From the IMG/VR virus record IMGVR_UViG_3300034682_000239, positions 1 to 37,515 of that record: a stretch of 37,515 bases of DNA; one strand, given 5' to 3'. This document shows, one piece after another, positions 1-30,484 of the stretch; positions within the stretch are counted from its first letter, which is position 1, and the number at the start of each line of letters is the position of its first letter. This DNA is from a virus. A program made the position numbers and the translations under genes. The notes beneath the pieces were generated by a model that worked only from the letters and a program-made list of their open reading frames with translations, had not been told where the DNA came from and did not search any database.

Positions 1-51
1 TGAAGCCGCGCGCGAAAAATTAGCGGTTGGATCTGCGATAAATGCGAAAAA
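1..51. promoter_or_regulatory. Left terminus: Mu R1/R2-like transposase-binding end
   Basis: Bases 1-19 (TGAAGCCGCGCGCGAAAAA) differ from the Mu right-end terminal site, as I remember it, at only two positions. Bases 36-50 (CGATAAATGCGAAAA) are identical to the core of Mu R2, shifted by one base relative to Mu. This is the end beyond the tail-fibre genes, the same place R1/R2 occupy in Mu. It is the expected cleavage and strand-transfer end for the transposase encoded at 30485-32248. The comparison is from memory. Confidence 0.8.
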
Positions 52-65
52 TCCTTTTTTCGCAT
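42..65 (-). terminator. Inverted repeat at the end of the late operon (possible terminator)
   Basis: ATGCGAAAAA (42-51) and TTTTTCGCAT (56-65) form a perfect 10-bp inverted repeat with a 4-base loop, 27 bases past the stop of the last late gene. It could end leftward late transcription before the phage terminus. The stem is AT-rich and lacks a clean U-run, so intrinsic termination is uncertain. One arm is also part of the R2-like transposase site, so the symmetry may reflect protein binding instead. Confidence 0.35.
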
Positions 66-91
66 CATGAAACATCTTTTCAGATTTAGCG

Positions 92-433
92 TTAGCCGTT
101 GATGGTTATCGTTCCGGCTTTTGTCTTGTGCTGTCCTTGTGCTGCATATGTCTCTGCTTGAGGATAAGCGCCAACCTTCTTCGCTGTTGCCCCTTGCCAC
201 AAAACATAGTGTGAGACCGTCGAGCCGGGAGGAACGTCCTGCAGTACATCTGCCGACTGCTGGCGTACACCGTCGTCAGCCGCTCCGAAGGCTATAGCCT
301 TACGTGAATAGATTGCTCCAGCGGTTGGCAATTCATTGGCCAATCCATCTGCACCAGGTGCGCCTGAGTGCAGTGAAATGGTGTCTACAGTGATGGCATT
401 CGCTGCCTGATTTTTAGCTGCTGCGGTTAACAT
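92..433 (-). CDS. Small tail-fibre/appendage protein, last late gene
   Basis: About 113 residues from ATG at 433, two bases after the previous stop. A longer frame to 520 exists but is basic and overlaps the upstream gene. An N-terminal stretch TISLHSGAPGADGLANELP, followed by IYSRKAIAFGAADDG, resembles the 'SLHTADPG..NE...YARQ..F' pattern of small phage tail-appendage proteins encoded beside fibres. The rest looks beta-rich, with the closing segment KAGTITING. Its terminal place in the late operon fits a fibre-associated or head-tail accessory structural role. Family membership is recognised by pattern only, and no enzymatic motif is seen. Confidence 0.6.
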   Translation of the reverse strand: MLTAAAKNQAANAITVDTISLHSGAPGADGLANELPTAGAIYSRKAIAFGAADDGVRQQSADVLQDVPPGSTVSHYVLWQGATAKKVGAYPQAETYAAQGQHKTKAGTITING

Positions 434-435
434 GG

Positions 436-756
436 CTAATTCCTTACTTTTCTTGGTTTGAACTGAAGTGGTCCGTCTAGGACGATAAGGTCGCGGCCAT
501 CGGTGTCGATAACCGCGCATTCGTGGGTATAAAATGTGTTCAACTGGTCAGCCATTGCTGCAGTGATTGTGATGGCGATGACACCGCCACTCCAGCTGAT
601 GCCATTGCCAAGTGACAAAGTCAGCAGTACTGCGCCGTCCCTGTCGAACAACTGATACTTCGCAGCCTGAATGCCGCTAATGGGCACGCCATCGACGTCA
701 TGCGCTACATTGATAACGCCGCCAGTGCCCTGACGGAGGGTTAATAACTCAGACAC
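436..756 (-). CDS. Tail appendage protein with Ig-like/BppU-type fold (putative)
   Basis: About 106 residues. A GTG at 756 is preferred because a GGAG ribosome site lies six bases upstream; an in-frame GTG at 762 is the alternative. The start overlaps the end of the upstream fibre gene by eight bases, implying translational coupling. The sequence alternates hydrophobic and polar residues (GAVLLTLSLGNGISWSGGVI, then THECAVIDTDGRDLIVLDGP), a beta-sandwich pattern seen in N-terminal domains of baseplate or fibre-connector proteins. The position between two fibre-like genes supports a structural tail-tip role. The fold assignment is inference. Confidence 0.55.
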   Translation of the reverse strand: MSELLTLRQGTGGVINVAHDVDGVPISGIQAAKYQLFDRDGAVLLTLSLGNGISWSGGVIAITITAAMADQLNTFYTHECAVIDTDGRDLIVLDGPLQFKPRKVRN

Positions 757-2110
757 GTGCACCTCCGCTGGATGTCTTTAAGTGGTAGCTGTAGCGGCCA
801 GAGGTCCGCATGCTGTGGGTGTAACGGCTGCTGCTGCGTACAAACAGCAAGGCAACTGGAGCCGGCAATGCAGCAGGGTTGCTGCCAGAAAGGGATATGG
901 TTGCTGACGCTAAAACGGCGACTGAGCCGAGGCCTACTTTGTAGCCATCGGCAGATAATGAGACAGCGCCTGCAAGTTGTGTTGTCGCATGACCGGTCTT
1001 GCTGGCCTGCGCTACGATTGCAGCATTCGCACTGGCAGTGACACCAGAAGCGCCTTGTTTAACAACTGAGCTGTAAACAGCAGCGGCTGCAGCAAAATGC
1101 ACCTGGCTTTGGCCAACCTTCTCGCCCTGGACTGAAGCAAGCGCCGTTGCAGTGACAGAGAACGTCCCTTCGCCGACAACGATATTGCCTGCATAAAGAC
1201 TGATATCTGCGACAGCCTCTACATAAAGTGGAGCAACGCCGACTTTGTTTGCTGCTATGCCCAGCACCGCATTAATTGGTACCGTGATACTGGCTGAGGT
1301 GTTTTTACTCGCCGACAAAAGGATGCCGGCAGTTGTGGGCAGACTCAGTACTGCAGAGCCAATTTTACTTCCCTGAGTGGCCGCCACTGCAGCAGCAACA
1401 GCCGACACAGATGCATTACCAACTTTGGAACTGGCCAAAGCTGCTGATGCTGTCGCGCTGACACTGATTGTGCCTTCACCGATGTAAAGGTTGCTGTAAA
1501 ACACCCACCAGCTGTTGGTTGTACCAGCAAAGCTGATCAGGGTAAGATTTCTATCAGATGCGTCATTGACCCAAGCAGTGCCTGAACCACTCGAACCGCT
1601 ATCATCCCATTGTGATTGATAAGTACAGTTAGTCCCATAAGTGCGGACGCCGTATAGCTCAAATGCCGCAGTGCCGGGAGCTGAAGATCCAACCTTTCCT
1701 ATCTGATTCCACGTTATGTTTGTGATTAGTGAGTTTGCGGCGGGAGCAACATAAGGCCCGGCAATACGAACACCGTTTTTTGTTAAGTACAACGATTGTG
1801 TAGACTCTTCCCACTCAGCACCGTATCTATGGCGTTCATTGAGTGGAGCTGTTCCGGCAGCACTTTCCAGATAAACAGTGCTGCTGTATCGCCATTGCAG
1901 CGTTTGTGTTGAGACATTTATACGCAGCGCAGTGACGTTAGTCGTAGTCGTGCCAAGTAAATTTACAAAACCGCTAGCGTTACCAGCCAATGGTTTAATG
2001 TCAATTTCGAACCCACTAACGTCCGTGTTCGCAAAAGCGTTGATTGAGAACGAAGGTATCGAAATAAAGGCGTCGGTACCTTGGCCCTGAGTGGTCACTG
2101 CATGAGGCAT
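749..2110 (-). CDS. Tail fibre protein with ten ~20-residue repeats
   Basis: 453 residues, starting one base after the upstream stop. Residues ~1-205 look like a lectin/LamG-type jelly roll (aromatic and Asn-rich strands such as LQWRYSSTVYL and ITWNQIGKVG). Residues ~210-411 are ten imperfect repeats of about 20 residues, most ending in K-V-G, K-I-G or K-x-G and built of small residues (A, S, V, T), as in beta-solenoids. The C-terminus is Ser/Arg/Tyr-rich (SSSRYTHSMRTSGRYSYH). No cysteine-based or enzymatic motif is present. Position near the end of the late operon fits a receptor-contacting fibre. The function is inferred from architecture and place. Confidence 0.65.
   Translation of the reverse strand: MPHAVTTQGQGTDAFISIPSFSINAFANTDVSGFEIDIKPLAGNASGFVNLLGTTTTNVTALRINVSTQTLQWRYSSTVYLESAAGTAPLNERHRYGAEWEESTQSLYLTKNGVRIAGPYVAPAANSLITNITWNQIGKVGSSAPGTAAFELYGVRTYGTNCTYQSQWDDSGSSGSGTAWVNDASDRNLTLISFAGTTNSWWVFYSNLYIGEGTISVSATASAALASSKVGNASVSAVAAAVAATQGSKIGSAVLSLPTTAGILLSASKNTSASITVPINAVLGIAANKVGVAPLYVEAVADISLYAGNIVVGEGTFSVTATALASVQGEKVGQSQVHFAAAAAVYSSVVKQGASGVTASANAAIVAQASKTGHATTQLAGAVSLSADGYKVGLGSVAVLASATISLSGSNPAALPAPVALLFVRSSSRYTHSMRTSGRYSYHLKTSSGGARV
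878..1478 (-). repeat. Ten ~60-bp coding repeats in the tail fibre
   Basis: On the minus strand this stretch encodes about ten units of 20-22 residues, for example NASVSAVAAAVAATQGSKIG followed by SAVLSLPTTAGILLSASKNT. The units are related at protein level (small beta-prone residues, a Lys-x-Gly or Lys-x-x end) but diverged in DNA, so they are old repeats rather than recent slippage. A repeated solenoid rod is the simplest reading. Confidence 0.7.
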
Positions 2111-2111
2111 A

Positions 2112-2801
2112 TCAGACCGCCGTCACGTTGCCGTCAATACAATATTCACCACCACGCCAACGCATCCGTCGTGGCAGCCCGTTATTTGGTACCGCAAAAG
2201 TATACGGCCGCAATTGATGGACACCGTGCAGTGCTGTGACGTGATACCACTCAGACCACTCGCCGTCGTTTTCCTGCATCTGTACCACTATATAAGTGGG
2301 TTCTGGCGTGGCCGTGGTCAACTTCAGGCGTAACTGGCGGGACTCACCTGGCTCTACTTCGACCCAGTCACCGACATCGACCAGTTCAGGTTCAAAATAT
2401 GCCACTACATCACGCAACGTCACGCTTGGCCAAAGCGGTTTCTGGTAAGTAGCCAGTTGCACCAGGTAGGCCTTTTCAGCTGATGCCAAGACGCCAGCGC
2501 TGACCGCATCGGTCAGTAGCTGCGCGACTTGTGGGTCGGCCAGATTGATGCTGTAAGAGTCTTCTCGCGCCAGATAAGCTGGTTGAATGGCTTCGGTCAC
2601 TGCTGCCGCTGCAGCTGCTTGTTCAGGTGTTGCATTGGCCAGTCGGTTGCGTAAACCGGTCCCACCAATAAACGACTGCAGGAGTTTCAGCTGGCTGCCT
2701 TGGATTTTGCCAATGGCAGTTGCTGATTGCTGGCGCAACGTTTCAAGGATCACAGGATATGACTGGCCACGCATGGCCTCCATTGCTGAATTTAAGCTCA
2801 T
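2112..2801 (-). CDS. Tail/virion protein of unknown function
   Basis: 229 residues, ATG at 2801 overlapping the upstream hydrolase by four bases (ATGA). The N-terminal ~95 residues are helical and Ala/Gln-rich (TPEQAAAAAAVTEAIQPAYL). The C-terminal half is beta-like, with aromatic and acidic patches (DVGDWVEVEPGESRQLRLKL, ENDGEWSEWYHVTAL) typical of a small carbohydrate-binding or fibronectin-like module. I do not recognise the family. Its place between a putative peptidoglycan hydrolase and the repeat fibre suggests a tail-tip structural protein. Confidence 0.6.
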   Translation of the reverse strand: MSLNSAMEAMRGQSYPVILETLRQQSATAIGKIQGSQLKLLQSFIGGTGLRNRLANATPEQAAAAAAVTEAIQPAYLAREDSYSINLADPQVAQLLTDAVSAGVLASAEKAYLVQLATYQKPLWPSVTLRDVVAYFEPELVDVGDWVEVEPGESRQLRLKLTTATPEPTYIVVQMQENDGEWSEWYHVTALHGVHQLRPYTFAVPNNGLPRRMRWRGGEYCIDGNVTAV

Positions 2802-3259
2802 GCTGCTACTCCTGCGATGTCATTTGCCGGCTGTGTCACAATCCACAAATGCTCCGGCGCTAAACGGTTCAGGCGTTCCTGGCGCAAAGTGCCAAGGATG
2901 ATTGCTGTATGGTGGCTACACCACAGCGCATACGGGTTATCCAGTTTGCGAGTGCCAAACCCAATGCCAACGGCGCCCCAGAAATCGTACTCAAGACCAA
3001 GCAAGCTATTGGCCCGAGTTTGCCAGCCAGGCGTGGCGTATGCAGTTGCGATTTCCCAGTTGCCAGCGCCATAGCGGTCTTTGAATTCCTGCAGCGGCGT
3101 TTTCACCACACCATCCGGATAGATAGCCTCGTGCACCACATCGCCAATGATGATGGCGACGTGGGACCAGCGCGACTGGTAACGTACGCGGATCGCATAA
3201 CTGCCAACCGAGTGACCCCGCGCAAAAATTACTTGTACTTTTTGTAAGTCATCCATCAT
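2798..3259 (-). CDS. Permuted NlpC/P60 (YiiX/LRAT-like) tail-associated hydrolase
   Basis: 153 residues. The His-first, Cys-later order of circularly permuted papain-like hydrolases is visible: His33 in SRWSHVAIIIG, a His-Glu pair (43-44) in VVHEAIYPDGV, and candidate nucleophile Cys114 in ALWCSHHTAI. The intervening YDFWGAVGIGFG segment is also typical. There is no signal peptide, so it probably acts as a virion tail-tip enzyme cutting murein or a lipid amide on entry, rather than as the endolysin (a separate enzyme at 26517-27161). The start is at the first of two ATGs behind AGGG. The fold call is from motif order; the substrate is unknown. Confidence 0.65.
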   Translation of the reverse strand: MMDDLQKVQVIFARGHSVGSYAIRVRYQSRWSHVAIIIGDVVHEAIYPDGVVKTPLQEFKDRYGAGNWEIATAYATPGWQTRANSLLGLEYDFWGAVGIGFGTRKLDNPYALWCSHHTAIILGTLRQERLNRLAPEHLWIVTQPANDIAGVAA

Positions 3260-3270
3260 TTAAACCCTGT

Positions 3271-3630
3271 TTAAACGTCGATTTGATAGCCGGCAGCGAC
3301 AAAGGTCTGCTGGATGGCCGGTGGTAACTCATGCCATTGCACTGGAGCTGACAAAATCTCCGCAGGGCGATTTGCAGTCAAAATGTTGGCAGCAACTAAT
3401 GCCGGCAACGCGACTGCAGAATAAGTCGGGTCGTCCAAATCAACGTGTGTGGCCACGACCGCGGCCAGACGTTTATCAAGCACTCGCAGCTGTGCACTCG
3501 ATGCCAGGGCATTTTCAAATGCCAGTGATTCAGCGGGTGTGAAGCGGCTGCGAAGGGCGTTTACTGTAATTTTGCGGCCGAGGTTTGCTTCTGAAACCTT
3601 CGGCGGGTCAATACGGATAAATTCACTCAC
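3271..3630 (-). CDS. Small tail protein of unknown function
   Basis: 119 residues from GTG at 3630, sharing one base with the stop of the preceding gene (TAGTG). The sequence MSEFIRIDPP...GRKITVNALRSRFTPAESLAFENAL is followed by helices and an Ala/Leu-rich middle. It contains neither membrane segment nor cysteines. I do not recognise it. The tight coupling between the propeller-like tail protein and the tail hydrolase implies a structural or assembly role in the tail tip. Confidence 0.6.
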   Translation of the reverse strand: MSEFIRIDPPKVSEANLGRKITVNALRSRFTPAESLAFENALASSAQLRVLDKRLAAVVATHVDLDDPTYSAVALPALVAANILTANRPAEILSAPVQWHELPPAIQQTFVAAGYQIDV

Positions 3631-5117
3631 TATTTAATCCTCACAAAATGGGCGGCGTATGAAGCCGCTGAAGATGTCCCGTCCAGTGGTGCTGCCGCTG
3701 GCAGACCAACCATCCATTTAAAATCAAAGGCGCTGACGCCATTGCCGTTTCCGACTTGATAGAAGAAATTGCCAAGGCGAATCAACACCATTCCACCGCC
3801 AGAGCGGATAAATCCTTGGCTGGCAAATGAGTTCGTTGTGTTGTAAGGCAGAACCTTTTGGCGGGTCATGTTAAAAGCTGTAATGGCCCAGCTACTGACA
3901 CGGATAATCAGTCCCTGATAATTCACTGCGTGCTGTGGGACGTAAGTGGTATCCATGCCATTGGCACCAATCTCTTGTTGGGCGACTAAAAAAACACCTG
4001 CACTTGAGCGACTAATCACAGCACCAATCCGGTTACTGGTGCTTGATTGAACCCAGACTTCAAAATCGGTGGAGTTTCTTGCCGCCGCAGCTTGCAGGGT
4101 CATGTCCGACGACTGGTTGAATAGAGTCAGAGTGAAGTTACAACCAAGTCCTGCGAAGGTCTCACTGACGGCAATAAAAGGCGCATTACGGCTCATCGAG
4201 GTCGAGTAATAATTCCCCCACAGCATCGTTTGGCCGTTGCTGGTTTCCACAGCGCCACGCAAATCCCGTTGCGCCAGTGTTTCCCCATCCGCATTCGGTG
4301 CTGCGATATCTGCCTGTGCTGTCCAACCGGCCAGTGTGTCTGAGGTCCAGTGTTTGTTCAGAATGAACAGATGAAACTTAGTGCTGCCGGCAAAGACCAG
4401 GGCGTTCGCATCTGCTGACCAAGTCGGTGGACTAGATGGCAGTGTAACCACCGTCCAGTTGGTGCCGTCTGTCGACTTCACCATTTTGGTACTACCACGG
4501 CCAATCATGACAAACACACCAAGGCGCGCATCCCAAGTGATGGAGACCCAGACCGAGCCAGACAGCGCACCACTGGCGCCGCTGATTGTGGTGCCAACAG
4601 TGGTAAAGTCGCCAGACCAGCGTGTCAGTGATGTCCCTGCAGTATTGATGGCCACAACCACGGAACCATTGCTGGCAACACGCTTTGGCGTAATGCCAGC
4701 AAGTGCAGGCTGACTCACCGGAGTTGGTGCCGCTGAGGCATCATTATTGATGACCGGTAATTTACTGGCGTCCGGGTAAGATGCTGTGTCATAAGTGATG
4801 ACACCGGCCCGCAGCCAAATCCCGCCATAAATATCTGTAAAACTATCTTTGTCTGAGAAAAATGGCCGGATCTCATTGATGTAGGACAGTGGCGTCTGCA
4901 CCGGCAGCGCAATGGCTTCCTGAAACAGTTCATCGAGTGTTGTAGCGCCATTATTATTTGCGATGCGCAGCGATAACTCATTGTTCAGGACCGTTTCATC
5001 CAGAAAAAGACCACGGGCAGCGCGGCGCAGCCGAATGAGGTCAATGATGGTCGTTGCCGATGTCACGGCATTTAGCCGTGCCTGCAGTTCAGTTCTTAAG
5101 TTGGTGGTCACCGTCAT
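3630..5117 (-). CDS. Large tail-tip protein with propeller-like repeats, candidate receptor-binding protein
   Basis: 495 residues, ATG at 5117. The first ~110 residues are helical (RTELQARLNAVTSATTIIDL) and could anchor to the tail. From ~140 onward there is a series of beta-strand motifs, such as VASNGSVVVAINTAGTSLTR, and TKMVKSTDGTNWTVV, which carries the S-x-D-G-x-x-W signature of BNR/sialidase-type propeller blades; further blades run to the end. Propellers of this kind are common in phage receptor-binding proteins. No catalytic residues are obvious. The target is probably a surface glycan or outer-membrane protein (inference). Confidence 0.6.
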   Translation of the reverse strand: MTVTTNLRTELQARLNAVTSATTIIDLIRLRRAARGLFLDETVLNNELSLRIANNNGATTLDELFQEAIALPVQTPLSYINEIRPFFSDKDSFTDIYGGIWLRAGVITYDTASYPDASKLPVINNDASAAPTPVSQPALAGITPKRVASNGSVVVAINTAGTSLTRWSGDFTTVGTTISGASGALSGSVWVSITWDARLGVFVMIGRGSTKMVKSTDGTNWTVVTLPSSPPTWSADANALVFAGSTKFHLFILNKHWTSDTLAGWTAQADIAAPNADGETLAQRDLRGAVETSNGQTMLWGNYYSTSMSRNAPFIAVSETFAGLGCNFTLTLFNQSSDMTLQAAAARNSTDFEVWVQSSTSNRIGAVISRSSAGVFLVAQQEIGANGMDTTYVPQHAVNYQGLIIRVSSWAITAFNMTRQKVLPYNTTNSFASQGFIRSGGGMVLIRLGNFFYQVGNGNGVSAFDFKWMVGLPAAAPLDGTSSAASYAAHFVRIK

Positions 5118-5118
5118 G

Positions 5119-5529
5119 TTAAATCCCTGCCAATGCTAATAATTCAACGTCTGCGATGCGTTGTGTCAGTCCCGGAATATCCGCAATCCCGATGGACACG
5201 TTTTGCGTGCCGTTGAACTGCTTGCCGTTAATGGTCCGGGTTGTTTGAAGCTGCACGGCATAAGTCGCGGTATTCCCGGCGGTGCCGATGGCGGCATAGG
5301 CCGCCTGTAGGTTCTGTTCAGCCTGTTGAACTAATGCAGCTGTTTGTTGGCGTAACTGGTCGGTTGCCTGCCTGATTTGTTCTGCGGTCGCTGCAGCAGC
5401 CAGTTGCTGGTTAAATGCTTCAAACGCGGTATCCACACCAGCGGCTAATGCCTGCAGCTTTTGTAGATAATCGCCGCCTTTATTCGAAGCGCTAAAAACC
5501 ACATTGGGTTTTACTAACGGCTCGCTCAT
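5119..5529 (-). CDS. Tail-fibre-like coiled-coil protein
   Basis: 136 residues. Residues ~20-85 are Ala/Gln-rich and heptad-like (AAAATAEQIRQATDQLRQQT), consistent with a trimeric coiled coil. They are followed by TRTINGKQFNGTQNVSIG, the R-x-I-N-G-x-x-F-x-G-x-x-N motif repeated in many long tail fibres, and a short C-terminal helix. Start ATG at 5529 directly adjoins the upstream stop. It probably connects the tail tip to the receptor-binding proteins encoded next. Confidence 0.65.
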   Translation of the reverse strand: MSEPLVKPNVVFSASNKGGDYLQKLQALAAGVDTAFEAFNQQLAAAATAEQIRQATDQLRQQTAALVQQAEQNLQAAYAAIGTAGNTATYAVQLQTTRTINGKQFNGTQNVSIGIADIPGLTQRIADVELLALAGI

Positions 5530-6372
5530 CTATGCCTCCCGGACCACAAATTTGGCCGTGTAATTGTTGTAAAAGGTGTTGGTCAGAGGTGGCAGCGCCG
5601 TGAACTTCGCAGCCATCGCATGTTCGATTTCTTTGATACCGCCGGCTTCGGGGTACAGGCTGATAAACCAATCCCGCGATAAACCGGCGTGCTGGATAGC
5701 GGCGCTTAAATGCGGCCGCTCAGCCTCGGGGACGTACTCCATACTGAAAGCCAGTTGCCGCGTTTTTGGCTTCGCGGCTGCAAATACTGAACCTGCAGCG
5801 GATTGCTTTTGTGATGCAGTGGTTTGCCAGGCAAATTCAGTACCCCAGCTGAAATTCACCGATGGTTGAAACGCCTGGCCAAGATAGACACGGTCAAACT
5901 CGTGGATCCCGTCCCGGCTGTTGTCGTCCTGCAGCGTGATGCGGCCTGATAAAGCGAACGTCTCGCTAAACCACAGTTGGCTGAATTTAAAAGGCCAGGT
6001 ATCAAAGGCGCTCGATACCAGCGGGTCAACTAACCAATCAAGTTCACCCAACGTTTTGGTCGGGATGGCGTCAATAAACCCGGAATCAAACAGTAAGCTG
6101 CCGCTGCAGTTTGGGCCTTCGAATAGCTCAATACGCCAGGTGGCGCCGTTGCTGAGCCAGTGGCGATAAAGCACCAGGCCATTGACCAGCGTCAATGCAT
6201 CGAGGTTAAACATCACTGCCGAAACGCCGTTGTCAGGGGTAATTGCGCAGGTTTTGCTGCGGCCATAGGTCTGGCTGTAAGTCAGTGGCAATTCTGGAAC
6301 GGCAACACCGGTTACCACTGACAGCTCGGCATCGTCCCAGCGATTCACAATCATCATGCGAATATTGCTCAC
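5530..6372 (-). CDS. Tail tip (distal tail/baseplate) protein
   Basis: 280 residues from GTG at 6372, behind a strong GGAGG ribosome site seven bases away and overlapping the upstream stop by four bases (GTGA). The sequence is beta-rich, with many aromatic residues (SNGATWRIELFEGPNCSGSL, FSWGTEFAWQT). Lying just downstream of the tape measure and hub-like gene, it fits a tail-tip component of D3112/B3-type siphoviruses. I do not recognise a specific family. The C-terminus FYNNYTAKFVVREA has no membrane segment or catalytic motif. Confidence 0.6.
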   Translation of the reverse strand: MSNIRMMIVNRWDDAELSVVTGVAVPELPLTYSQTYGRSKTCAITPDNGVSAVMFNLDALTLVNGLVLYRHWLSNGATWRIELFEGPNCSGSLLFDSGFIDAIPTKTLGELDWLVDPLVSSAFDTWPFKFSQLWFSETFALSGRITLQDDNSRDGIHEFDRVYLGQAFQPSVNFSWGTEFAWQTTASQKQSAAGSVFAAAKPKTRQLAFSMEYVPEAERPHLSAAIQHAGLSRDWFISLYPEAGGIKEIEHAMAAKFTALPPLTNTFYNNYTAKFVVREA

Positions 6373-7796
6373 CGGATCACCTCCAGCGTGCACGTGTCCT
6401 GCAGTAGTTCGTCACGTAACCGGGTGATCACGGCCTGTCCTGGCACAGCAAAATATTGGGGATACTCAATGGTCACGGTTTGGCCTAAATCGAGATTAAA
6501 CGGGGCTGCAAAGGCAGAGCATTCAAAAATTGTGCGCGGTACCGCCGACCATGCAGCGCGTCTGTTTGCTTCAGTTGTCGCATCTGCCAGGGTCACAATC
6601 AGCGTGCTGACAGATACGTCGACCGCATCCGGATCATCAATGCCGGCATTGGTCGCGGTGAATGAGGATTCTGATTGTTCGTAGGTCGCTGCAACGGCTG
6701 GAGTGGTCTCCCGCACAGAGCCGGCAAGGCCATCTGCCTGTGGTGTCCAGTTGCGCCGGTACCCAATTTTCACAGTTTTCGCTGGGGCAATACGCCGGCG
6801 CGGCCAGAGACTGTTGTCTTCAATGTCATCACTGGTCACGCTCGCGACTGGTGCACCGGGGCCATTAAAAAACAGCCACTGCAGCTGACCGAGCCGGCTG
6901 TAATACCAGGCAGCGCCGACACTGGCGCTGATGTCATCCAGTGCTGTCGCCAGGGCTTTATCGCCAGTGATGTAAAGCCCAAGTTGGTAGGCCGGAAGCG
7001 TTGCCAATCCTGCCGGCACGGCAAGGCCAAACCGGCCAACCAGATAAGTGATCATCTGCGCGGCGTTCTGCAGCCAGGTACCAGCTGGTTTTGCGCCGTC
7101 GACATCTGCGGTCACACGACCTTTGGCGTTATTGGTCAGGGTAAAAGTGCCTGCAGCCAGATTGGCGGTGTACGGAATGGCCACGCCGTTTTCCCGCACT
7201 GCGGTAATGGCTTGGATAGCGCCGTCATGCACCTGGTAGGTTTTAGTGGCGTCGTTCAGCAGCACTGGGCTGACGTTAAAGCAGCGCCCTAAACAAATCG
7301 GCACTGGCTGGCCAGCATTGGGGCCAGAGGCAATTAATGTGGTTTGCAGCTGCCGGCGCAGCAGCTCTGAAGTGTCGCGAAGTGTCAGTTGGACGGTATC
7401 GTAACTGGTCGCCCTCAAAGCCTCTGCAGTGGCGGTGATGACCACGCCAAACTGTGCAAGTGGCCAGCTGGCATCACCGCAGCGGATTGTCACTGGCAGG
7501 CCGCCAACACTGGCCGTCTCTAAAAGAGCCTGCAACTCTTCGTCCAGGAACAAATCAATACTGGTGCGCGCAGTGGTACTGTAGCCGGTAAAAAGCTCCG
7601 TCAATTCCCGGCCCCAGCTACCAACCGACAAAACGGTGTCGTGATACGGGGTAAATGCCGGCGTATCAGTTGGGCTTGAACGGTACGGATGCGTCGAACG
7701 CCGGATAGTGTTCACCTGGCCAGCCTGGCGCACCTGAAACTCAACCAGATAGCAGCGGTCCATACCAGGCGTTTTAATCCAGTCAGCAAACATCAT
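6369..7796 (-). CDS. Tail hub/baseplate-like protein
   Basis: 475 residues, ATG at 7796 with GGAGG upstream, overlapping the tape measure stop by four bases. Mixed beta architecture: an N-terminal module (~1-140) with repeated strand patterns, a middle with ATALDDISASVGAAWYYSRL, and a C-terminal FNLDLGQTVTIEYPQYFAVP segment reminiscent of hub proteins that bind a ligand-like cap. The gene order tape measure, this protein, tail-tip protein is the usual order for siphovirus tail-tip assembly. The hub assignment rests on position and length more than on a recognised domain. Confidence 0.55.
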   Translation of the reverse strand: MMFADWIKTPGMDRCYLVEFQVRQAGQVNTIRRSTHPYRSSPTDTPAFTPYHDTVLSVGSWGRELTELFTGYSTTARTSIDLFLDEELQALLETASVGGLPVTIRCGDASWPLAQFGVVITATAEALRATSYDTVQLTLRDTSELLRRQLQTTLIASGPNAGQPVPICLGRCFNVSPVLLNDATKTYQVHDGAIQAITAVRENGVAIPYTANLAAGTFTLTNNAKGRVTADVDGAKPAGTWLQNAAQMITYLVGRFGLAVPAGLATLPAYQLGLYITGDKALATALDDISASVGAAWYYSRLGQLQWLFFNGPGAPVASVTSDDIEDNSLWPRRRIAPAKTVKIGYRRNWTPQADGLAGSVRETTPAVAATYEQSESSFTATNAGIDDPDAVDVSVSTLIVTLADATTEANRRAAWSAVPRTIFECSAFAAPFNLDLGQTVTIEYPQYFAVPGQAVITRLRDELLQDTCTLEVIR

Positions 7797-10700
7797 GCTT
7801 GCCTCCGGATTTCATACATCATCGCTTGTGTGCGTTGCAGATCATCCTGCAGGGCCGACATTTGGCGCGCTTGTAGTTCACTCGCATGACGTTGCTCTGC
7901 CAACTGCTGTTGCAGCAAATCAGCCATATTCGATTCGGCTCCCGCTGATGCTTGCTGAGTCGCAGGCGCAGCCACTTGAACTGTCACATTCACAACTGGT
8001 GGTGGCATGTTGCCTATCGCGACGATAATGTCATTCATGCCGTCACGTAATGACGTCGCTGCATCGAGCTGCTGTTTTGCAAGGGCTAATGCTGCGTCGC
8101 GCTGGGCTGCGGCCTGGGACTCAAGTTGTTCCAACATTGCCTGCAGGGCATTTAGCTCAGTGATCGCACCTTCTTGCAGCGCTAACTGGCGTGCCTGGTA
8201 GGCAGCGATTTCCGCTTTGGCCAGAGCTTCTGCTGCAGCTTTTTCTTCAGCGGCCTTTTTCTCCAGGCCATCGAGTAGCAGCTGTAGCTCTTCCAGTTCT
8301 TTGATGCTTTGTTGCTGTAACAAGCTGTCAGCTTGCTGATACTCAAGTACGGCGCGTGGTACTGAAGCTTCAGCAGAGTTCGCTAAACCACCAAAGCTTC
8401 GATAGGCCTGTTGCACCTGAGCAAAAATCGCCGCGTATTCCGAACTGCCACTCGCGTAATAATCCCGCGCCAACTCCAGATAGCTGTTTCCGACACCGGA
8501 TAATTGTTGCATTGCATCCGCATCACCACTGCGAGCCTTGTTTAACAGCTGATTAAACTGCTTTTGCGCCTCAGTAAATTGGTCGCCCATCAGTGCCGGG
8601 TTGAGGTCGCTGAGCAGCAAACTATCCGCTGCAGCTAACAGTTGTTTCGCTGCATCACGCAGCGCGTTGTGGGCTGCGACATCCGCCTCATAGCGGGCCT
8701 GTGCAGCTGTTGCGAGCTGGGCATTGGCTGCCAGTTCTGCGTTGTAGCGGTCGACAATGGCTTGCTGCAGGGCTGATACGGTGTTGATTTGGTCCAGAAC
8801 AGAGCCTGCACCTAATTTGCTTCGAAGGCCTGTGATATTGCCTTTCTGATAACCGACTTCATTCCAGCCGCTACCCTGGCGGCGGATATCTAAAATCGCG
8901 GCCGAAATCGAGCTGCGCACGCTGGCTAGGGATGATGTCAGCTCGCCCCAGCTGGCGTTCAGGCTATCGAGTGCCGCTTGCGCTTGTTGCATCAGCAGGT
9001 TATTGGCGCTGATGTCGGCCTGATACCGGCTGACAATGGCGCCCTGCAGGGACTGGATGGCTTTGATTTGGGCGGTGATGTCGCCGGTACCGAGCTGACC
9101 GCGCAGCTGTTTGACCTGACCAGCTTGATAGGCAGACTCGTCCCAGCCGGTCATTTGACGGCGAATATCCAGAATCGAATTGCCAATGCCGGCGCTGGCC
9201 GATTGGATACTATCGACCAACTGTTTAAAAGTGTTGTTGATCTCAGTCGTTGCTTTTTCAAGCTCAGCCGCAATCAGCGCTGCACGTTTACGGTCGTAGA
9301 GCTTTTCCAGCAGGCTGGTATCCGCGCCGAGTTCGGCCGCTTCTTTAATTTGCGCGTCATACCAGGCTTTTAAATCAAACAAGCTCTTTTGCAGGTCGGT
9401 CATATCGAGTTTGGCCAACTCGTCGCCGATGGATTTGTTGAAGCTGGCCAGCTCCCGTGCTTTGCGCTCTTGCTGGTCATAGTACTGGTCCATTGCCGGT
9501 ACCAGCGCCATCAATGCAGCAAACATGCGCTGTCCAGCGTCGGTCGTTAAATCGAGGCTATCGACCAGCGCTTTAAAACCATCTCGGCTTTGTGGCATTG
9601 CCACACCAAGGCTTGCGAACTGCGCAGTTGCGGATTTAGTAATAGCGGCCAGCTGCTCTTGTTCAGAGTAAAACTCAGCAAAATAGTCCGCCGTAGCTGA
9701 TTGGAATTGCTCGATGCCGCCCATCAGTTCAATGATGCTTTGGGCCACTTCCAGCTCAATGGCTTTGGTCACGCCGGCAAAGCGGCTTAACTGCAGCCCC
9801 AGATTGTCCAGGGCAGAATTAAACACAGCTTGTTCCTGGGCAACCCGGATAAGGGTGTCATACAGGCCTTCGCCGATTTGCTGGAACTCGGCTATGCCAG
9901 GCACCAGGTACTGGACCATTAAATCGCCTTGCTGCGAGAACATCGCCTGCAGCTCTTTCTCGATTTCATCGCCTTTGAGGTCTTTAAACGACAGCGCCGG
10001 CAGGTTGATGACAAAGGATTCCAGCGTTTTGTTAGTTTCTAAACCCAACAGGTTGACCGCTTCAGTCACGGATTTACCCATATGACTGAAAATGCGACTG
10101 AACTCTGCCCGCAGCGCGTTATCAATGGCGCGATATTCGGTGCTTTCCGAAGTAGATTTACTGAGGCCAAATAGTTTCTTTTTGGTGGTTTTAATGACGT
10201 CGTAGACGGTCGCATTCATTAAACCGCTGCTGATGATGTCGCCCAGTTCCTGTGCCGCAAAGCTCAGGCCGCTGTCGACCAGCTCCGTCTTTTTGCTGCC
10301 AAAGAGGCCACCGAGCAGTTTGTTGGTGAGACCACCAACCAAGCCTCCCAGCAGTTTATCTGCCACCAAACCAATCACACCGCCGCCAACGACAGAGGCC
10401 AAGCCGCTGCCAAGCTGCAGGTTATATTCTTTGCCGAGTTCGCCTGGGTAACTGGATTCGTTGAACTTGCCATAACTGGCCACAAGGTTGACGGCCAGAT
10501 TTTTGATGCCGGCAGAGAGTTCGCGGATACTGCCGTTAATCGAGCGCAGCTCTGCGTATTGGTCCAGCTCCAAATCCTCGATACGGCCAAGCGCATTAGC
10601 AATTGATTCAGATTTGGCGCTGTCATCACCAAGGACTGTGCCGGTGCCCTGGGATTTCTGCCGGTCTTCTGCGCTGACACCGCCGCCACCGGCAGAGCCG

Positions 10701-13483
10701 CTGAACACACCAAGGCCAGCCATTAATGCGGCCATGGCCGCAATCCGGGCAAAGGCAGAATATGGGTCGCCGCCGCCCTGGTTCGTAATTGCGGTCAGCG
10801 CATTGGCTGCCGCTTTTTTCAGTGCCAACGCTGTTTCAATCGCTGCAAAAGTAACTTCCAGCTTATGCAGTACCTGGCGGCCTTTGGACTGCTCACTAAA
10901 CATCTTGCTGGCCGCGCCGGTCAGTGAGGCAAAATGCCCCATCTGGCTTTGGTAGTAGTCGTTTTTAAGCTTGGCTTCTTTCTCGTCAACGGCTGCTTTG
11001 CCCTTGGCATATACAGCACTGTTTTTATCAAGAATGTTTAACTTGGCCTTTTCGCCCGCCAGTTCTTTTACTTTTTCGTTGTACTGCAGCTGGCTTTCGG
11101 TCATCGCATCCAGCTGCTGCGCCACTGAGCCGAACGCCTGCACCAGTACATCGCCAATGTTGGTGGCGATGCCGTTCATGGCAGTCATGTCATCCAGCAT
11201 CTTGTCAAAAGCGCCACTGCTGATTTGCTCTGTCAGCTCAATTTGGTCTTTGAGTTTTTGCTGAACACGGATTTGATTTTCAATCTCGGCAATAACGGCC
11301 GGATCACCCCCTTTGAGCTGATACAGCGCTTTTTGTACTTCATATTCCTTTTCACCTTTTGCCAGGCGAATTTGCAAAAGCTCAGTCTCTTTTTTCAGGC
11401 TGTCGAGGGTTTCTTTGTCTGTGACCAGTGCTTGTTTCTTTTCAATCAGCTGCAGTTCACGCTGCAGGGCCGCGAGGGCCGCAGGATTGGCACCGGTAAA
11501 CTGCTGCAGTTTCTTTTGCAGGTCGGCTGATTGCTGGCCGCGACGAAGCCGTAAATCCAGCAGTTTTAATTCTTCGCGCAGCTGCTGCAGGTACGTATCA
11601 GCATTGAGGTTTGCCGTGGCGGTTTTTGCCTCTTCAGCAAATTTTTTGATGGCAGCAGCCGCATTGGCCGGCAGTGTTGTAGCTTCAATAAACTGGGCTT
11701 TGAATAAATCGAGGTCTACGCCGGTTAAGGCACGGCCTTGAGCGTCGATAGCCTGAGCTGACAACATTTGGGTGTTGTATAGCTTAAGCATTTCGTCTGC
11801 TAATTTATTGGTGCTTGCCGAGTTATCAACAAGTTTGGAGCTATACGCATCGAGACCTGGTAAACCGGCGTTAAAATTCTTATTCAGCCCCTCGATAACA
11901 GCGTTGAGTTCAGCTGCGCGACTTTTCAATTCTTCTTGCTGTTTTTTTAGTGCTTCCAGCTGCTGTGTGTCAGCGATTGGCATTGAAGCACCAACTGTAC
12001 CCGCACCAAAGACTGGCCTATTTCTGGTAGCTTTTAGTTTTGCTTCAACTTCTGCTACTTGTGCGGCAACCTGCTGCAGTTCTGCAACAGTATCTTGATA
12101 TAAGCCAGCCTTACGTTTGGCGCTCATACGCTCGAATGATGCTGTCAATTCATCACTCTTCACTTTGGCTTTTTCTGCGGCCTCTTCATAAGCAAACCAT
12201 GCACCAGTTAAAACCCCGGCAATGCCGATGACTAAACCGATTGGGCCTAATAATGCACGTTGTGCAATGGCCAGTGCGTTAGATGCCACTGTTGCAGTGC
12301 CTGCCGTGGTTGTTACCAGGCCAAGTGCTGAAACCTGTGTAACGGCTGCTGTGTTGACCAACAGCATTTCAATCAGCACTAAAGCTTGTTTCTTTGCAAA
12401 CCCAGCAAAGGCTGCGACACCAACAACGCCGATCGCATAAGCCAGCAGCTCAGCTGTTTTTATCGAAGCCTGAAGATTTGGACTTAGTTCCTCAATACTT
12501 CCAGTTCTAAAACTATCAAGGATCTGCGACACGCTTACTAAGGATTCAGCCCATGCCTTGGACAACTCAAGAGTTTTATCTAGATGCGCCACAGTTGCAG
12601 CAAAACTGTTTTCGACCATGACATTAGCCCGAGCCAGATTGACAGGCAGCTCGCCGAACTGAGCCCGGATCTCAGGCAGTTGTACTAAAATCGACTTCAG
12701 TACATCTTCCGATAGCAGCTTACCTTCCAGTACCAGGGCGCGCATTTCGCCAAACCCCAGTTCTTTTGTTGATTTGCCAATATCGTCCATGCCCCGGCCA
12801 ATTCGTGATGCCAGCTCTGGGATATTCTCCAGAATAGAATTCCACTCTTCAGCCCGAAGTATGCCGCCTGATAAGCCCTGGCTAAGCTGCATTAAGCCGT
12901 TATCCATCGCTTGCATGGACGACCCACCAATAACACCCAGCATTTGGACAGCATCGGTCAGGCCCAGCATTTCGGCATTGGTTGCTTTGAGGTCTTTACG
13001 GCTGGTTGCCATGCGCTGGAACAAATCAACAGATGCGCTGAGTGCTACCCCGTTTTTCTGTGAGATGTCGAACATTTCAGCCGACACCTGGTTGTAGTCA
13101 TGGGTTTCGCGGGTTGCCGTTTTAATACGTTGCTGTAGGCCATCGAATTCTGACGCAACAGTGGCAAAGCCTTTCACTGCATTGAATGTTTCAAAAGCAG
13201 CATAAAGAGCAGCAGTCACTCCAACCATTGAGCGCAAGCTACCGGCAAGGCTTACCGCAGTACTTTCGTTCTCCTGCAAAGCGGTGCTGAGCTGTTTGCT
13301 GCTATTAGCAGCTTTGCTCAGCCCCTTGGCAGATTCGTTGCCAGCGGTATCGAGCTGCTTTAACGACTTGGTAGCCGTTGTTGTGCTTTGAGTAATGCCA
13401 TTGATGTCTTTGACAACGACCTGACCACCGGCAACGGCAAAGCGGATGGCAATGTTCATATCGTTGTTATTCATAAATGGCAT
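7793..13483 (-). CDS. Tail tape measure protein (1896 residues)
   Basis: The largest gene, 15% of the genome. Its N-terminus contains a recognisable tape-measure domain (roughly residues 75-290: FATVASEFDGLQQRIKTATR, LSQGLSGGILRAEEWNSILE). Hydrophobic segments lie near 330-420, a long helical coiled-coil region runs through ~430-900, and a Gly-rich hydrophobic stretch near ~1050-1085 could insert into membrane. The C-terminal third is Ala/Gln-rich coiled coil. Two internal tandem duplications are annotated separately. Start ATG at 13483 overlaps the upstream stop (TAATG). At the lambda ratio of ~0.15 nm per residue it would set a tail of about 280 nm (inference). It follows the G/GT chaperone genes, as usual. 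Confidence 0.93.
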   Translation of the reverse strand: MPFMNNNDMNIAIRFAVAGGQVVVKDINGITQSTTTATKSLKQLDTAGNESAKGLSKAANSSKQLSTALQENESTAVSLAGSLRSMVGVTAALYAAFETFNAVKGFATVASEFDGLQQRIKTATRETHDYNQVSAEMFDISQKNGVALSASVDLFQRMATSRKDLKATNAEMLGLTDAVQMLGVIGGSSMQAMDNGLMQLSQGLSGGILRAEEWNSILENIPELASRIGRGMDDIGKSTKELGFGEMRALVLEGKLLSEDVLKSILVQLPEIRAQFGELPVNLARANVMVENSFAATVAHLDKTLELSKAWAESLVSVSQILDSFRTGSIEELSPNLQASIKTAELLAYAIGVVGVAAFAGFAKKQALVLIEMLLVNTAAVTQVSALGLVTTTAGTATVASNALAIAQRALLGPIGLVIGIAGVLTGAWFAYEEAAEKAKVKSDELTASFERMSAKRKAGLYQDTVAELQQVAAQVAEVEAKLKATRNRPVFGAGTVGASMPIADTQQLEALKKQQEELKSRAAELNAVIEGLNKNFNAGLPGLDAYSSKLVDNSASTNKLADEMLKLYNTQMLSAQAIDAQGRALTGVDLDLFKAQFIEATTLPANAAAAIKKFAEEAKTATANLNADTYLQQLREELKLLDLRLRRGQQSADLQKKLQQFTGANPAALAALQRELQLIEKKQALVTDKETLDSLKKETELLQIRLAKGEKEYEVQKALYQLKGGDPAVIAEIENQIRVQQKLKDQIELTEQISSGAFDKMLDDMTAMNGIATNIGDVLVQAFGSVAQQLDAMTESQLQYNEKVKELAGEKAKLNILDKNSAVYAKGKAAVDEKEAKLKNDYYQSQMGHFASLTGAASKMFSEQSKGRQVLHKLEVTFAAIETALALKKAAANALTAITNQGGGDPYSAFARIAAMAALMAGLGVFSGSAGGGGVSAEDRQKSQGTGTVLGDDSAKSESIANALGRIEDLELDQYAELRSINGSIRELSAGIKNLAVNLVASYGKFNESSYPGELGKEYNLQLGSGLASVVGGGVIGLVADKLLGGLVGGLTNKLLGGLFGSKKTELVDSGLSFAAQELGDIISSGLMNATVYDVIKTTKKKLFGLSKSTSESTEYRAIDNALRAEFSRIFSHMGKSVTEAVNLLGLETNKTLESFVINLPALSFKDLKGDEIEKELQAMFSQQGDLMVQYLVPGIAEFQQIGEGLYDTLIRVAQEQAVFNSALDNLGLQLSRFAGVTKAIELEVAQSIIELMGGIEQFQSATADYFAEFYSEQEQLAAITKSATAQFASLGVAMPQSRDGFKALVDSLDLTTDAGQRMFAALMALVPAMDQYYDQQERKARELASFNKSIGDELAKLDMTDLQKSLFDLKAWYDAQIKEAAELGADTSLLEKLYDRKRAALIAAELEKATTEINNTFKQLVDSIQSASAGIGNSILDIRRQMTGWDESAYQAGQVKQLRGQLGTGDITAQIKAIQSLQGAIVSRYQADISANNLLMQQAQAALDSLNASWGELTSSLASVRSSISAAILDIRRQGSGWNEVGYQKGNITGLRSKLGAGSVLDQINTVSALQQAIVDRYNAELAANAQLATAAQARYEADVAAHNALRDAAKQLLAAADSLLLSDLNPALMGDQFTEAQKQFNQLLNKARSGDADAMQQLSGVGNSYLELARDYYASGSSEYAAIFAQVQQAYRSFGGLANSAEASVPRAVLEYQQADSLLQQQSIKELEELQLLLDGLEKKAAEEKAAAEALAKAEIAAYQARQLALQEGAITELNALQAMLEQLESQAAAQRDAALALAKQQLDAATSLRDGMNDIIVAIGNMPPPVVNVTVQVAAPATQQASAGAESNMADLLQQQLAEQRHASELQARQMSALQDDLQRTQAMMYEIRRQA
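8715..9190 (-). repeat. Tandem duplication in tape measure (ILDIRRQ repeats)
   Basis: Two ~70-residue segments with ~92-residue spacing start with ILDIRRQMTGWDESAYQAG and ILDIRRQGSGWNEVGYQKG. Each continues through an LRGQLG or LRSKLG motif to QAIV/GAIV-x-RYxAxxxAN. Approximate protein positions are 1434-1505 and 1526-1597. The DNA copies are diverged. Such duplications change the tape measure and hence tail length. Confidence 0.7.
11250..11595 (-). repeat. Second tandem duplication in tape measure (LR(L/I)xxG helical repeats)
   Basis: Two neighbouring ~55-residue helical segments align: LREELKLLDLRLRRGQQSAD, leading to FTGANPAALAALQRELQLIE, and LKKETELLQIRLAKGEKEYE, leading to LKGGDPAVIAEIENQIRVQQ. 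Both have the order helix, short G-(A/G)-(N/D)-P turn, helix. This is a diverged internal duplication within the coiled-coil region. Confidence 0.6.
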
Positions 13484-16467: not shown

Positions 16468-17100
16468 TCAGCTTTGAGCTGCGTCCCCTTTGGCTTTTTT
16501 CTTATTGTCCTTTTGTTCTGCGGCCAGTCGGGCTGCTTCAGCCTGGCGTTGCTCTTCAGCCAGACGGGCTTCTTCGGCTTTGCGTTGCTCTTCAGCCAGA
16601 CGGGCTTCTTCAGCTTTGCGCTGCTCTTCGGCCAGACGGGCTTCTTCGGCTTTGCGCTGCTCTTCGGCCAGACGGGCTTCTTCGGCAAGCTCTTCCTGCT
16701 GCAGGATTTCCGCTAACTGTTCGCAGGTGATGAGGTCACCACATTCAAGTAACGGTGCAGCCTCATCGGGGGCCAACAACATAAACTGACGTTCGGTAAA
16801 GCTCTTGCCGAGGCGCTCAACGGAACGACCATCTGCGACGATAAAAACGCGCTTACCTGCCGCGACTGAATCAACAACCAAGCCCTGCAGCTCATTGGCT
16901 GTAACCGGCGTTAAGTCCCCGGTTAGTTCGTCCATGGTGAACAATTGGTCGTCATCATCCAGTTCAATGCCATCGACTAATGGCACCAAGCTGCCGGAAA
17001 TAACCAAGGGTTCGGCTTCTTCCGCCGTCAGGGTGATTAAGCCCTTGTGCTTGATTTCGCCGTTCAACTTGAACGGACTGGCAATTAAAAATTCTGGCAC
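16468..17100 (-). CDS. Mu gp35/HI1506-like protein with Glu/Arg coiled-coil repeats
   Basis: 210 residues. The N-terminal ~40 residues (PEFLIASPFKLNGEIKHKGL, then TLTAEEAEPLVISGSLVPL) look like the 'FluMu' N-terminal domain found in gp35-type proteins, which sit between capsid and gp36. A second similar half follows (ANELQGLVVDSVAAGKRVFI...FMLLAPDEAAPLLECGDLIT). Residues ~136-195 are tandem KAEEARLAEEQR units, a long charged helix, with a basic tail (KDNKKKAKGDAAQS). The role is unknown. A head-associated fibre or internal coiled coil is possible. Confidence 0.65.
   Translation of the reverse strand: MPEFLIASPFKLNGEIKHKGLITLTAEEAEPLVISGSLVPLVDGIELDDDDQLFTMDELTGDLTPVTANELQGLVVDSVAAGKRVFIVADGRSVERLGKSFTERQFMLLAPDEAAPLLECGDLITCEQLAEILQQEELAEEARLAEEQRKAEEARLAEEQRKAEEARLAEEQRKAEEARLAEEQRQAEAARLAAEQKDNKKKAKGDAAQS
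16515..16694 (-). repeat. Five 36-bp tandem repeats encoding 12-residue coiled-coil units
   Basis: Units start at 16515, 16551, 16587, 16623 and 16659. The middle three differ by only one to three bases, the first is diverged, and the last is truncated in similarity. Each encodes K-A-E-E-A-R-L-A-E-E-Q-R or a variant. Near-identical DNA copies mean recent expansion and likely copy-number change by slippage or recombination. The copies are contiguous, so this is not a CRISPR. Confidence 0.9.
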
Positions 17101-21710: not shown

Positions 21711-23190
21711 GTTGTTCCTGCACCTCGATACGACCTGCTAAATGGGCTGCGCTGTTGGCTTGTGCCATCGCTGCAGCGAAACCTTCCAGCGACAAGTCCG
21801 GATACAGTTCCAGCAACTGGTCCTGCAGCTGCTCTAACGACCCGGCTTTGTCGACCAGCGCTTTCACCTGGTTAATCCACTCTGCAAGTGCAGGCTCTGC
21901 GAGACTGCGTGCTGGCTCCAGCATTTGGCTGGGGGGCTGGAAACCAGTCGTGATGGCAGCGGCAAAGCTCGCCGGCTCTTTTGAGGCCGGGCCCGCAGGT
22001 GCCTGACCAAGTTGTGCCGGTACTGGCTCGGGCTGCTTTTCTTCAAAGCCATCGCCATAGGTCTGCTGGATGTACTGCAGGGTCGGTTTATAGCCAAGGG
22101 TAAGGATCTTGGTATCGCGCTCAGCACGACTACCCAAATCTTCCGGCGGCTCGATGTTACGAAAAACCCGTGGCAATTTGGCGCCAGGGAAATTCCATTC
22201 CACCAGCCACTTTACGATGCTGCGGTTGAATGACTCACAGACCAGGTCGCTATCCGCTTTGATGATGTCAAGCCTGACATCGCCCTGCAGGTCGTCATTA
22301 CCAAGCCGGCCCGGTGTGCCCTGGGTGCTGGCTGTCTGGCCCAAGACAACCTTGGCTATCGCCGCATCCATCCGGTCGTATAACGATACATAGTCGGCGG
22401 TACCGGAACGGGCCGCTTCAATCAGTTCGATTTCCATACCGTCAGGGATTGCTATACCTGAATCCGTTGAAATGGCCGCCAGAGCCTGCAGCAGTTTGCT
22501 TTTCTCATCTGGGCCGGCGTTCGGGCCGTATTTACCCTTGGCCGTTGGCTGACCAAACTTCTCCAGGAACAGCAGCCAGTACTTCAAGCCGTTGCGTTTA
22601 AAGAATGCCGGCCAGTAAAGCCAGTGGCCAAGGCCGGTCCCGTATGGGTCATCGTCATGATCTGAGCCGGTATTAAAGGCCCAGAATTTACGGTCTGGCA
22701 GTAGCTCGCCCAGCGGTTGCTGGTGGGTTTTCATGCGTAGCCGGCCATGGCCGTCGAAGCCAAAGCGGCGGCGGTTACGCACCTTAATGTCAGCCAGTAC
22801 CACATTGGCCCCGTCGCGCTCATAAATAGCCTCGCTGACTGCAAAGCCGTAATACACGCCAAACAGCATGCCATTGGTGACCCGGTCCCAGCCCACGTTG
22901 TTTAATTGTTCGCGGATAAAGTCGGCGGCCTTTTTGTCCTGGCGGCTGGTACCACCGGCATCCACTTGCCAGTTTTTACCAATGACTGCGAGCTGGCGCT
23001 GGCCGAAACAGGTTTTCACCTGGTCGTCGCGCAGCACCTCCGAATAAATCCGGTAGTCACCGCCACCGCGTAACTGCAGTACCGGGTCGCGAACCGGCTG
23101 CACAGCCAGCGGGTCGACGTAGCCAATGGTGATGTCGCGGCCATCGGCGGTGGTGGCGATTTCCTGCATGATGGGAGCGTTATTTGACAT
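21697..23190 (-). CDS. Portal protein (DUF935, Mu gp29-like)
   Basis: 497 residues, ATG at 23190 sharing one base with the terminase stop (TAATG). DUF935 landmarks are visible: LRGGGDYRIYSEVLRDDQVK, CFGQRQLAVIGKNWQVDAGG, VTNGMLFGVYYGFAVSEAIY, LKYWLLFLEKFGQPTAKGKY, VLGQTASTQGTPGRLGN and SFNRSIVKWLVEWNFPGAKL. The family forms the dodecameric DNA gate and head-tail junction. The C-terminal ~110 residues (Ala/Gln/Pro-rich, then ELYPDLSLEGFAAAMAQANS) are the usual variable tail. Confidence 0.92.
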   Translation of the reverse strand: MSNNAPIMQEIATTADGRDITIGYVDPLAVQPVRDPVLQLRGGGDYRIYSEVLRDDQVKTCFGQRQLAVIGKNWQVDAGGTSRQDKKAADFIREQLNNVGWDRVTNGMLFGVYYGFAVSEAIYERDGANVVLADIKVRNRRRFGFDGHGRLRMKTHQQPLGELLPDRKFWAFNTGSDHDDDPYGTGLGHWLYWPAFFKRNGLKYWLLFLEKFGQPTAKGKYGPNAGPDEKSKLLQALAAISTDSGIAIPDGMEIELIEAARSGTADYVSLYDRMDAAIAKVVLGQTASTQGTPGRLGNDDLQGDVRLDIIKADSDLVCESFNRSIVKWLVEWNFPGAKLPRVFRNIEPPEDLGSRAERDTKILTLGYKPTLQYIQQTYGDGFEEKQPEPVPAQLGQAPAGPASKEPASFAAAITTGFQPPSQMLEPARSLAEPALAEWINQVKALVDKAGSLEQLQDQLLELYPDLSLEGFAAAMAQANSAAHLAGRIEVQEQHGQQ

Positions 23191-24650: not shown

Positions 24651-25222
24651 GAGCGGATCCCCAGTGCTTCCCGGATAGCATTGCGGGTTTCTTCGGTAAC
24701 GCCGCCTTTGGTTTCCATGGCTGCCAGTCGGGCCTTCTGCTCTTCCAGTAACTGCCTGCGGCCTTTTTCCTCTGCCTCTTCCTGGTACCGTTTTAGGGTG
24801 ACGGATGACCGGGTCAGCGTGGCGATGTTTTTGGCGGCTTCAGCCAGCAAGCCAATGCGCTGTGCTGGCGTCATTTCTTCGTCGCTGGCTTCCTGCAGGT
24901 TCATGATGCTTTCAAACAGCTCAGACTGGATCATGGCGGTCAGAGCTTCTGACCGGGCATCTTCCTTGTCTTCGGTCTGTGCACGGATGATTTTGGCGGC
25001 TTCAGTACTGGCCCGGATAGCACTTAACCGGCGCTCCAGTTTTTGACCATAACGACCAACAGCGCTGCGGCTTGGCAGTTCTCCGGCCGCAGCTTCTTCC
25101 GGAAAGGCCCGCTGCAGGTCGGCGATCAGTTCATCCAGGGTCAGCCGGTTGTCAGCCAGCTTGCCCTGGATATAGGCGCGGATCACATCAGGCAATTTAT
25201 CCAATGATGATTTGCGGGCCAT
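24647..25222 (-). CDS. Small terminase-like protein (DUF3486, Mu gp27-like)
   Basis: 191 residues from ATG at 25222 (MARKSSLDKLPDVIRAYIQ), four bases after the gp26-like stop and behind GGTGA. An extension to 25285 lies within the upstream gene. The pattern 'R.S.ld.LP..vr..i...L....Tldeli..L', SRSAVGRYGQKLERRL, EALTAMIQSELFESIMNLQE and LTRSSVTLKRYQEEAEEKGR is characteristic of DUF3486. It is the probable DNA-recognition subunit acting with the adjacent large terminase. The N-terminal part is a helix-turn-helix; the rest is coiled coil. Confidence 0.88.
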   Translation of the reverse strand: MARKSSLDKLPDVIRAYIQGKLADNRLTLDELIADLQRAFPEEAAAGELPSRSAVGRYGQKLERRLSAIRASTEAAKIIRAQTEDKEDARSEALTAMIQSELFESIMNLQEASDEEMTPAQRIGLLAEAAKNIATLTRSSVTLKRYQEEAEEKGRRQLLEEQKARLAAMETKGGVTEETRNAIREALGIRS

Positions 25223-27161: not shown

Positions 27162-27163
27162 GA

Positions 27164-27448: not shown

Positions 27449-27457
27449 TTTGCATCC

Positions 27458-30482: not shown

Positions 30483-30484
30483 GT

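Follow-up and report, generated by a model that had tools for sequence, protein, structure and literature searches.

The window, by which we mean the whole 37,515-nucleotide stretch of viral DNA analysed here, is one complete genome of a B3-type transposable phage, and its bases 1-50 are the right transposition end of the element. Our results suggested that the striking likeness of this end to the right end of phage Mu reflects an end code that transposable phages have in common, and not a stolen Mu end. The explanation that best covers all the observations, to which we give a probability of about 70%, is that the element has the ends placed here, that both carry paired sites for its transposase TnpA, that the right (R) end keeps an ancient signal, and that a phased array restricted to the left (L) end would be a packaging (pac) site.

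A new member of the B3-like group in inverted orientation

We place the phage in the B3-like group, as a new member. It encodes a B3/BcepMu-type DDE transposase, TnpA (rve, phrog_310; 30485-32248, + strand), which is 60% identical to that of Pseudomonas phage B3 and is directly followed by the AAA ATPase B, a DNA transposition protein (phrog_296; 32248-33396, +). Of transposase domains, a Pfam search detected rve alone and none of the MuA type (PF02316, PF09039, PF02914 and PF09299). Also as in the B3-like phages, the early operon is inverted, a Mor-type late activator (37033-37401, +) is the final gene ahead of the left end, and the late genes lie on the opposite strand, among them those for the large terminase (23190-24650, -) and for a small terminase of the Phage_Mu_Gp27 family (PF11985, phrog_426; 24650-25222, -). 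Since Mor comes last before 37515, with the early operon running rightward and the late genes leftward, the order is that of B3 reversed. Thus, the window is inverted relative to B3 and Mu, base 1 being the R end and base 37515 the L end, and the likeness to Mu is one of right end to right end.

With B3 and its relatives the phage shares the TnpA family, the early operon with mor at L, the Gp27/TerL/portal cassette, an L end of the form TGAGAGAGAGTGAG, an R end beginning TGWAGC, and TG...CA ends found at differing host sites (one host junction here, several sites in relatives) with a 6-bp duplication in the relatives. BcepMu-like prophages of Enterobacteriaceae and other hosts have a TnpA 58-60% identical and the same L-end architecture, array included; they differ in that several have contractile tails, as judged from the annotation of PhiKM and KP12. 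Megablast found no nucleotide match between window 1-12000 and any phage record. One metagenomic contig (L167, IMGVR 3300035670_000241) is 98.8% identical to window 1497-5549 and unrelated from its own position 4053; it is either a recombinant or a close relative whose tail segment at the right end is a different one. Two further genes are worth recording: 16468-17100 (-), between the capsid and head-tail genes, is predicted to encode a protein with near-identical EEARLAEEQRKA-type repeats, and 27892-28401 (-), adjoining the lysis genes, a small TPR-like protein (weak Pfam match).

The ends of the element are fixed to the base

The original prediction, made from the sequence, was that the window is an intact transposable phage with an exact boundary, starting with TG and ending with CA, and both parts were borne out. 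The terminal dinucleotides are as described. Moreover, a contig (L007) 99.93% identical to window 26415-37515 departs from it exactly after base 37515, and what lies beyond is a host HD-domain gene (PF13487). An independent contig of the same phage carrying the R junction was sought and not found, and the window's own target duplication is not visible. The boundary at base 1 is supported through relatives. The R end of Rheinheimera baltica is 80.7% identical over window 1-82, the match beginning exactly at base 1. In addition, we took the R-end TG in eight related elements and sought its flank past the L-end CA; six of the eight, R. maricola included, showed perfect 6-bp host duplications at the equivalent ends (TCGTTA, CCTGAC, GCGTGG, GCATGA, CCAGCG and GCCAAT). 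Duplications of 5-6 bp had been proposed as a check, and they are seen, at 6 bp, in relatives though not around this element itself. This is the length reported for B3/Tn552-type transposases (PMC8705779). We regard the ends and boundaries of the element as placed here as nearly certain. Note that in one contig (L008) the DNA past the L end (7422-11561) is 69-81% identical to window tail genes (9465-10920 and 12640-13138), which points either to an adjacent second phage or prophage or to a chimera.

The right end closely resembles the Mu right end

Comparison with the Mu record upheld the predicted matches in every detail: window 1-19 and the first 19 bases of Mu R agree at 17 positions, and window 36-50, which reads CGATAAATGCGAAAA, is identical to Mu 35-49 (15/15), shifted by one base. 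Over both strands of the 37.5-kb window, the best match to Mu R 1-19 is at position 1 (17, the runner-up scoring 15), and the sole 15/15 match to the core is at position 36 (runner-up 12). The spacer between the two motifs (20-35) differs from that of Mu. Extended to 34-50, the second site fits the Mu transposase consensus with two mismatches and is the only such site at a window end, whereas Mu has several at both; across the window, MuA consensus sites showed no clear excess over shuffles. The phage also differs from Mu in having 22 bp, not 23, between the two sites, and in an unrelated L tip; the target duplication is 5 bp in Mu and 6 bp in the relatives of the window phage.

Two trivial origins of this likeness have next to no probability. 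The motifs are of simple composition, a GC-rich and then an A-rich stretch, which speaks for a chance similarity; however, the best match among about 75,000 positions sits exactly on the element boundary, with the second motif one base off its expected place, and we reject chance. Contamination by a sequencing adapter was weighed because the adapter of Nanopore rapid kits is the Mu right end, and because a single dataset (3300045125), in which the exact Mu end stands close to the ends of contigs, supplied most matches to the Mu-end pattern in viral contigs. The window end, by contrast, differs from Mu at many positions, its whole spacer included, and the same end form is flanked by 6-bp duplications in an isolate genome, that of R. 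maricola; these two facts refute an adapter origin. As for that dataset, in many of its contigs (L128-L145) the exact Mu right end, followed by an invariant tail, is found close to an end; most likely this is transposase-adapter sequence from Nanopore kits that was never trimmed from public viral contigs.

Both ends carry the same pair of sites

Beyond what had been predicted, the L and R ends share the same two sites, and the L end carries in addition a phased array. The motif GNGAWAAAT occurs twice at each end, at bp 12-20 and again at bp 35-43. At the R end, the tip TGAAGCCGCGCGCG (1-14, +), of the family-wide form TGWAGC plus a CG-rich stretch, overlaps site 1, GCGAAAAAT (12-20, +), a putative transposase site within the stretch resembling Mu R1 (1-19); site 2, GCGATAAAT (35-43, +), lies within the extended site 34-50 described above, and a palindrome, TGAAACATCTTTTCA (TGAAA-N5-TTTCA), follows at 68-82 (+). 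At the L end, the tip and site 1 form TGAGAGAGAGTGAGATAAAT (37496-37515, -), the site itself being GAGATAAAT at L bp 12-20; site 2, GAGATAATT, occupies L bp 35-43 (37473-37481, -), and the palindrome, AGAAAAACAGTTTCA, L bp 87-101 (37415-37429, -). The palindrome thus starts 68 bp into the R end but 87 bp into the L end, and is conserved in relatives. The insert between site 2 and the palindrome that L has and R is missing is the array: three GGGAT motifs at exact 10-bp spacing (L bp 46, 56 and 66; 37446-37470, -), our candidate pac site.

The relatives with proven duplications have equivalent sites, with graded scores, at either end (bp 12 and 34/35), and the Rheinheimera-type group adds after site 2 a second half-site, GCGAAAA, which completes a Mu-type site. 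The Mu-like R end is therefore the shared two-site pattern plus an R-specific tip. These regularities make it very likely that sites 1 and 2 are TnpA targets. The transposase would bind them at both ends, pair L with R and cut 3' of the terminal CA, leaving the 6-bp duplications.

The right-end tip is shared by phages with different transposases

The R ends of B3-type phages form a graded series in their likeness to Mu. B3 itself scores 13/20 and 8/15 for the two motifs, the Rheinheimera group 17/20 and 14/15, and a further element (L141) 18/20 and 15/15; R. baltica, R. maricola and L141 carry the same R-end form as the window, whose own end (17/20, 15/15) is nearer to that of Mu than B3's is. 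R ends of MuA-type phages of Vibrio, Sinorhizobium, Bacillus and Faecalibacterium also start with TGTAGC and a CG-rich stretch. Across MuA-, D3112- and B3-type phages the identity of the R tip (bp 3-16) is 0.69-0.77. Among six genomes, mean pairwise identity over these positions was 0.77 for R against 0.31 for L, and between MuA-type and B3-type tips it was 0.70 for R and 0.19 for L; random 16-mers starting with TG gave 0.255 +/- 0.031 and never exceeded 0.40 in 20,000 draws. The exact R-tip pattern was present in 3 of 30 further MuA-type records, and most of 15 MuA-type records inspected had no recognisable R end, matching of target duplications yielding one clear further case (L266); from these counts, universality of the tip is not proven.

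The two transposases turned out to be remote, profile-level homologues. It had been stated that the proteins of this phage are far from those of Mu, and in sequence this holds, TnpA lying outside the MuA Pfam families; yet a diverse MuA profile (A4) aligns with TnpA 119-445 (probability 95.6%, E 1e-8), spanning the catalytic domain and the beta-barrel as well as the last part of the DNA-binding region. A narrow MuA profile gave nothing against TnpA (probability 4%), and a PDB sequence search returned essentially retroviral-type integrases alone. The AlphaFold model of TnpA, which is weak (pLDDT 69, pTM 0.40), best matches TnsB of ShCAST; MuA was absent among the fold matches listed for it.

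The prediction left open whether the end had been conserved or acquired. Conservation is the part that stood, through the graded versions in relatives; a specific acquisition was not supported. We consider it improbable that this phage or a recent ancestor recombined with a Mu-like phage and so gained its right end. R-end modules can indeed move between phages: the R end of B3/PM105 and the tail DNA next to it recur in DMS3 (85% DNA identity to PM105 over about 2 kb), a phage with a MuA-type transposase, so that a single R end is able to work with two types of transposase. Against a transfer from Mu, however, the window and Mu match in short motifs alone, with a different spacer and the second motif shifted by one base; the same form recurs in R. 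baltica, R. maricola and L141, with graded versions in other B3-type ends; R sites 1 and 2 match the phage's own L end; and the R-end tree already partly follows the transposase tree. A conserved ancestral signal is the likely reading of these comparisons. The Mu likeness would then be no recent gift from Mu, and would be an ancient right-end signal held by constraint while the transposases diverged past the reach of simple sequence search.

A phased GGGA array marks the left end

The phased GGGAT triple of the L end is the sole one in the window on either strand. Similar phasing emerged when 25 distinct B3-type L ends (representatives below 75% identity), chosen by bp 1-20 only and without use of the array, were pooled: 87 of 147 GGA pairs (59%) were exactly 10, 20 or 30 bp apart, compared to 10% in shuffles (maximum 23%), and the spectrum peaked at 10.1 bp with a power of 35.8 (shuffle maximum 11.4). 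The statistic is significant in the pooled set and not at every single end; those of B3, PM105 and P. pseudonitroreducens show imperfect 10-bp spacing, not significant singly. In 15 MuA-type L ends 57% of GGA pairs were phased, compared to 10% in shuffles (maximum 24%), a set biased in that some members were picked partly by phasing, though Mu, V1.028, Mushu and StopSmel were not. As in the window, GGA recurs every 10 bp in the Mu L end (at 34, 44, 54 and 64), and the Firmicute phage Mushu also carries the array. Moreover, upstream of MuA genes at 50 MuA-type loci, 42 phased triples lay on the inward strand, adjoining TGTAT left ends, and 9 on the other. The R ends checked have at most two GGA each. 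The L end of BalMu-1 (L272) has no GGGA array; in the same region it has a ATCTCGTAAAG repeat about 20 bp apart. We did not find the array, its exact 10-bp spacing or its spread over transposase families described in the literature that could be searched.

The array accompanies the Gp27-family small terminase in the phages checked

Small terminases (TerS) of the Gp27 family are encoded by the window phage, Mu, V1.028, phiSHP3, Mushu and StopSmel, and indeed by every clear-array phage whose terminase was checked. D3112 is the sole lineage lacking both: D3112 and DMS3 have a DUF1804 protein in the Gp27 position and no array. DMS3 thus resembles the window phage in an R end like that of B3 and differs in its MuA-type transposase, its unrelated L end, the DUF1804 protein beside the terminase and the missing array. 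BalMu-1 is an exception, with a weaker, divergent Gp27 match and no GGGA array. The TerS of the window is predicted by its model to have an N-terminal helical DNA-binding-like region and a long helical hairpin; a fold search with this model gave no match at E <= 0.001.

An array that turns up with MuA-type as well as B3-type transposases, and at the L end alone, is not a general transposase site. Its position at the L end follows from gene order, and the direction of packaging is known from Mu, which packages by headful beginning at the L end (PMC2837660). We propose it as pac because it is present only at L, goes with Gp27, and lies at the end where Mu headful packaging starts, and because of the coordinates of the Mu site. 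That site was reportedly mapped by Groenen and van de Putte in 1985; we take it to lie at about bp 32-54 of L, where it falls on the phased GGGA array of Mu.

A different role, which we think less likely, is that the array is additional DNA for transposase, HU/IHF or bending and gives the L end its shape for synapsis. In B3-type ends it comes straight after site 2, its GGGAT unit is similar to the site GNGATAAAT, and in Mu the array lies in the L1-L2 spacer, which is bound by HU. However, it is absent from R ends, which the transposase must bind too, the same array accompanies MuA-type and B3-type transposases, and DMS3, without Gp27, has none despite its MuA-type transposase. On this comparative evidence we lean towards the candidate pac site. 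The Gp27-family TerS, proposed to form a ring, would read the array from one face of the helix, and packaging would begin at L and run past R.

Discussion

What looked like a Mu end in a distantly related phage is thus better seen as part of an end code common to transposable phages: a conserved R tip, sites that recur at the two ends and, at L only, a phased array which is probably a packaging signal. More tentatively, at a little under even odds for the two parts together, transposable phages with unrelated-looking transposases may share a two-part code. Its first part would be the R-only tip (TGWAGC plus a CG-rich stretch), constrained in a way that the L tip is not, and its second the L-only array, read by Gp27 as pac.

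The analysis places both ends of an uncultured phage with single-base accuracy and sets apart three layers of end signal that usually go together under the name of transposase sites. A 2022 review (PMC9611059) calls the way in which small terminases find pac unclear and controversial, and models of nucleosome-like wrapping are disputed. An exact 10-bp array that goes with Gp27 terminases of several lineages (BalMu-1 excepted) offers a defined substrate for this question. The better conservation of the R tip than of the L tip raises in turn the question of which right-end-specific step imposes it. If the packaging reading is true, the L array would be an example from nature of a phased pac site, and would inform the disputed question of how small terminases that form rings recognise DNA.
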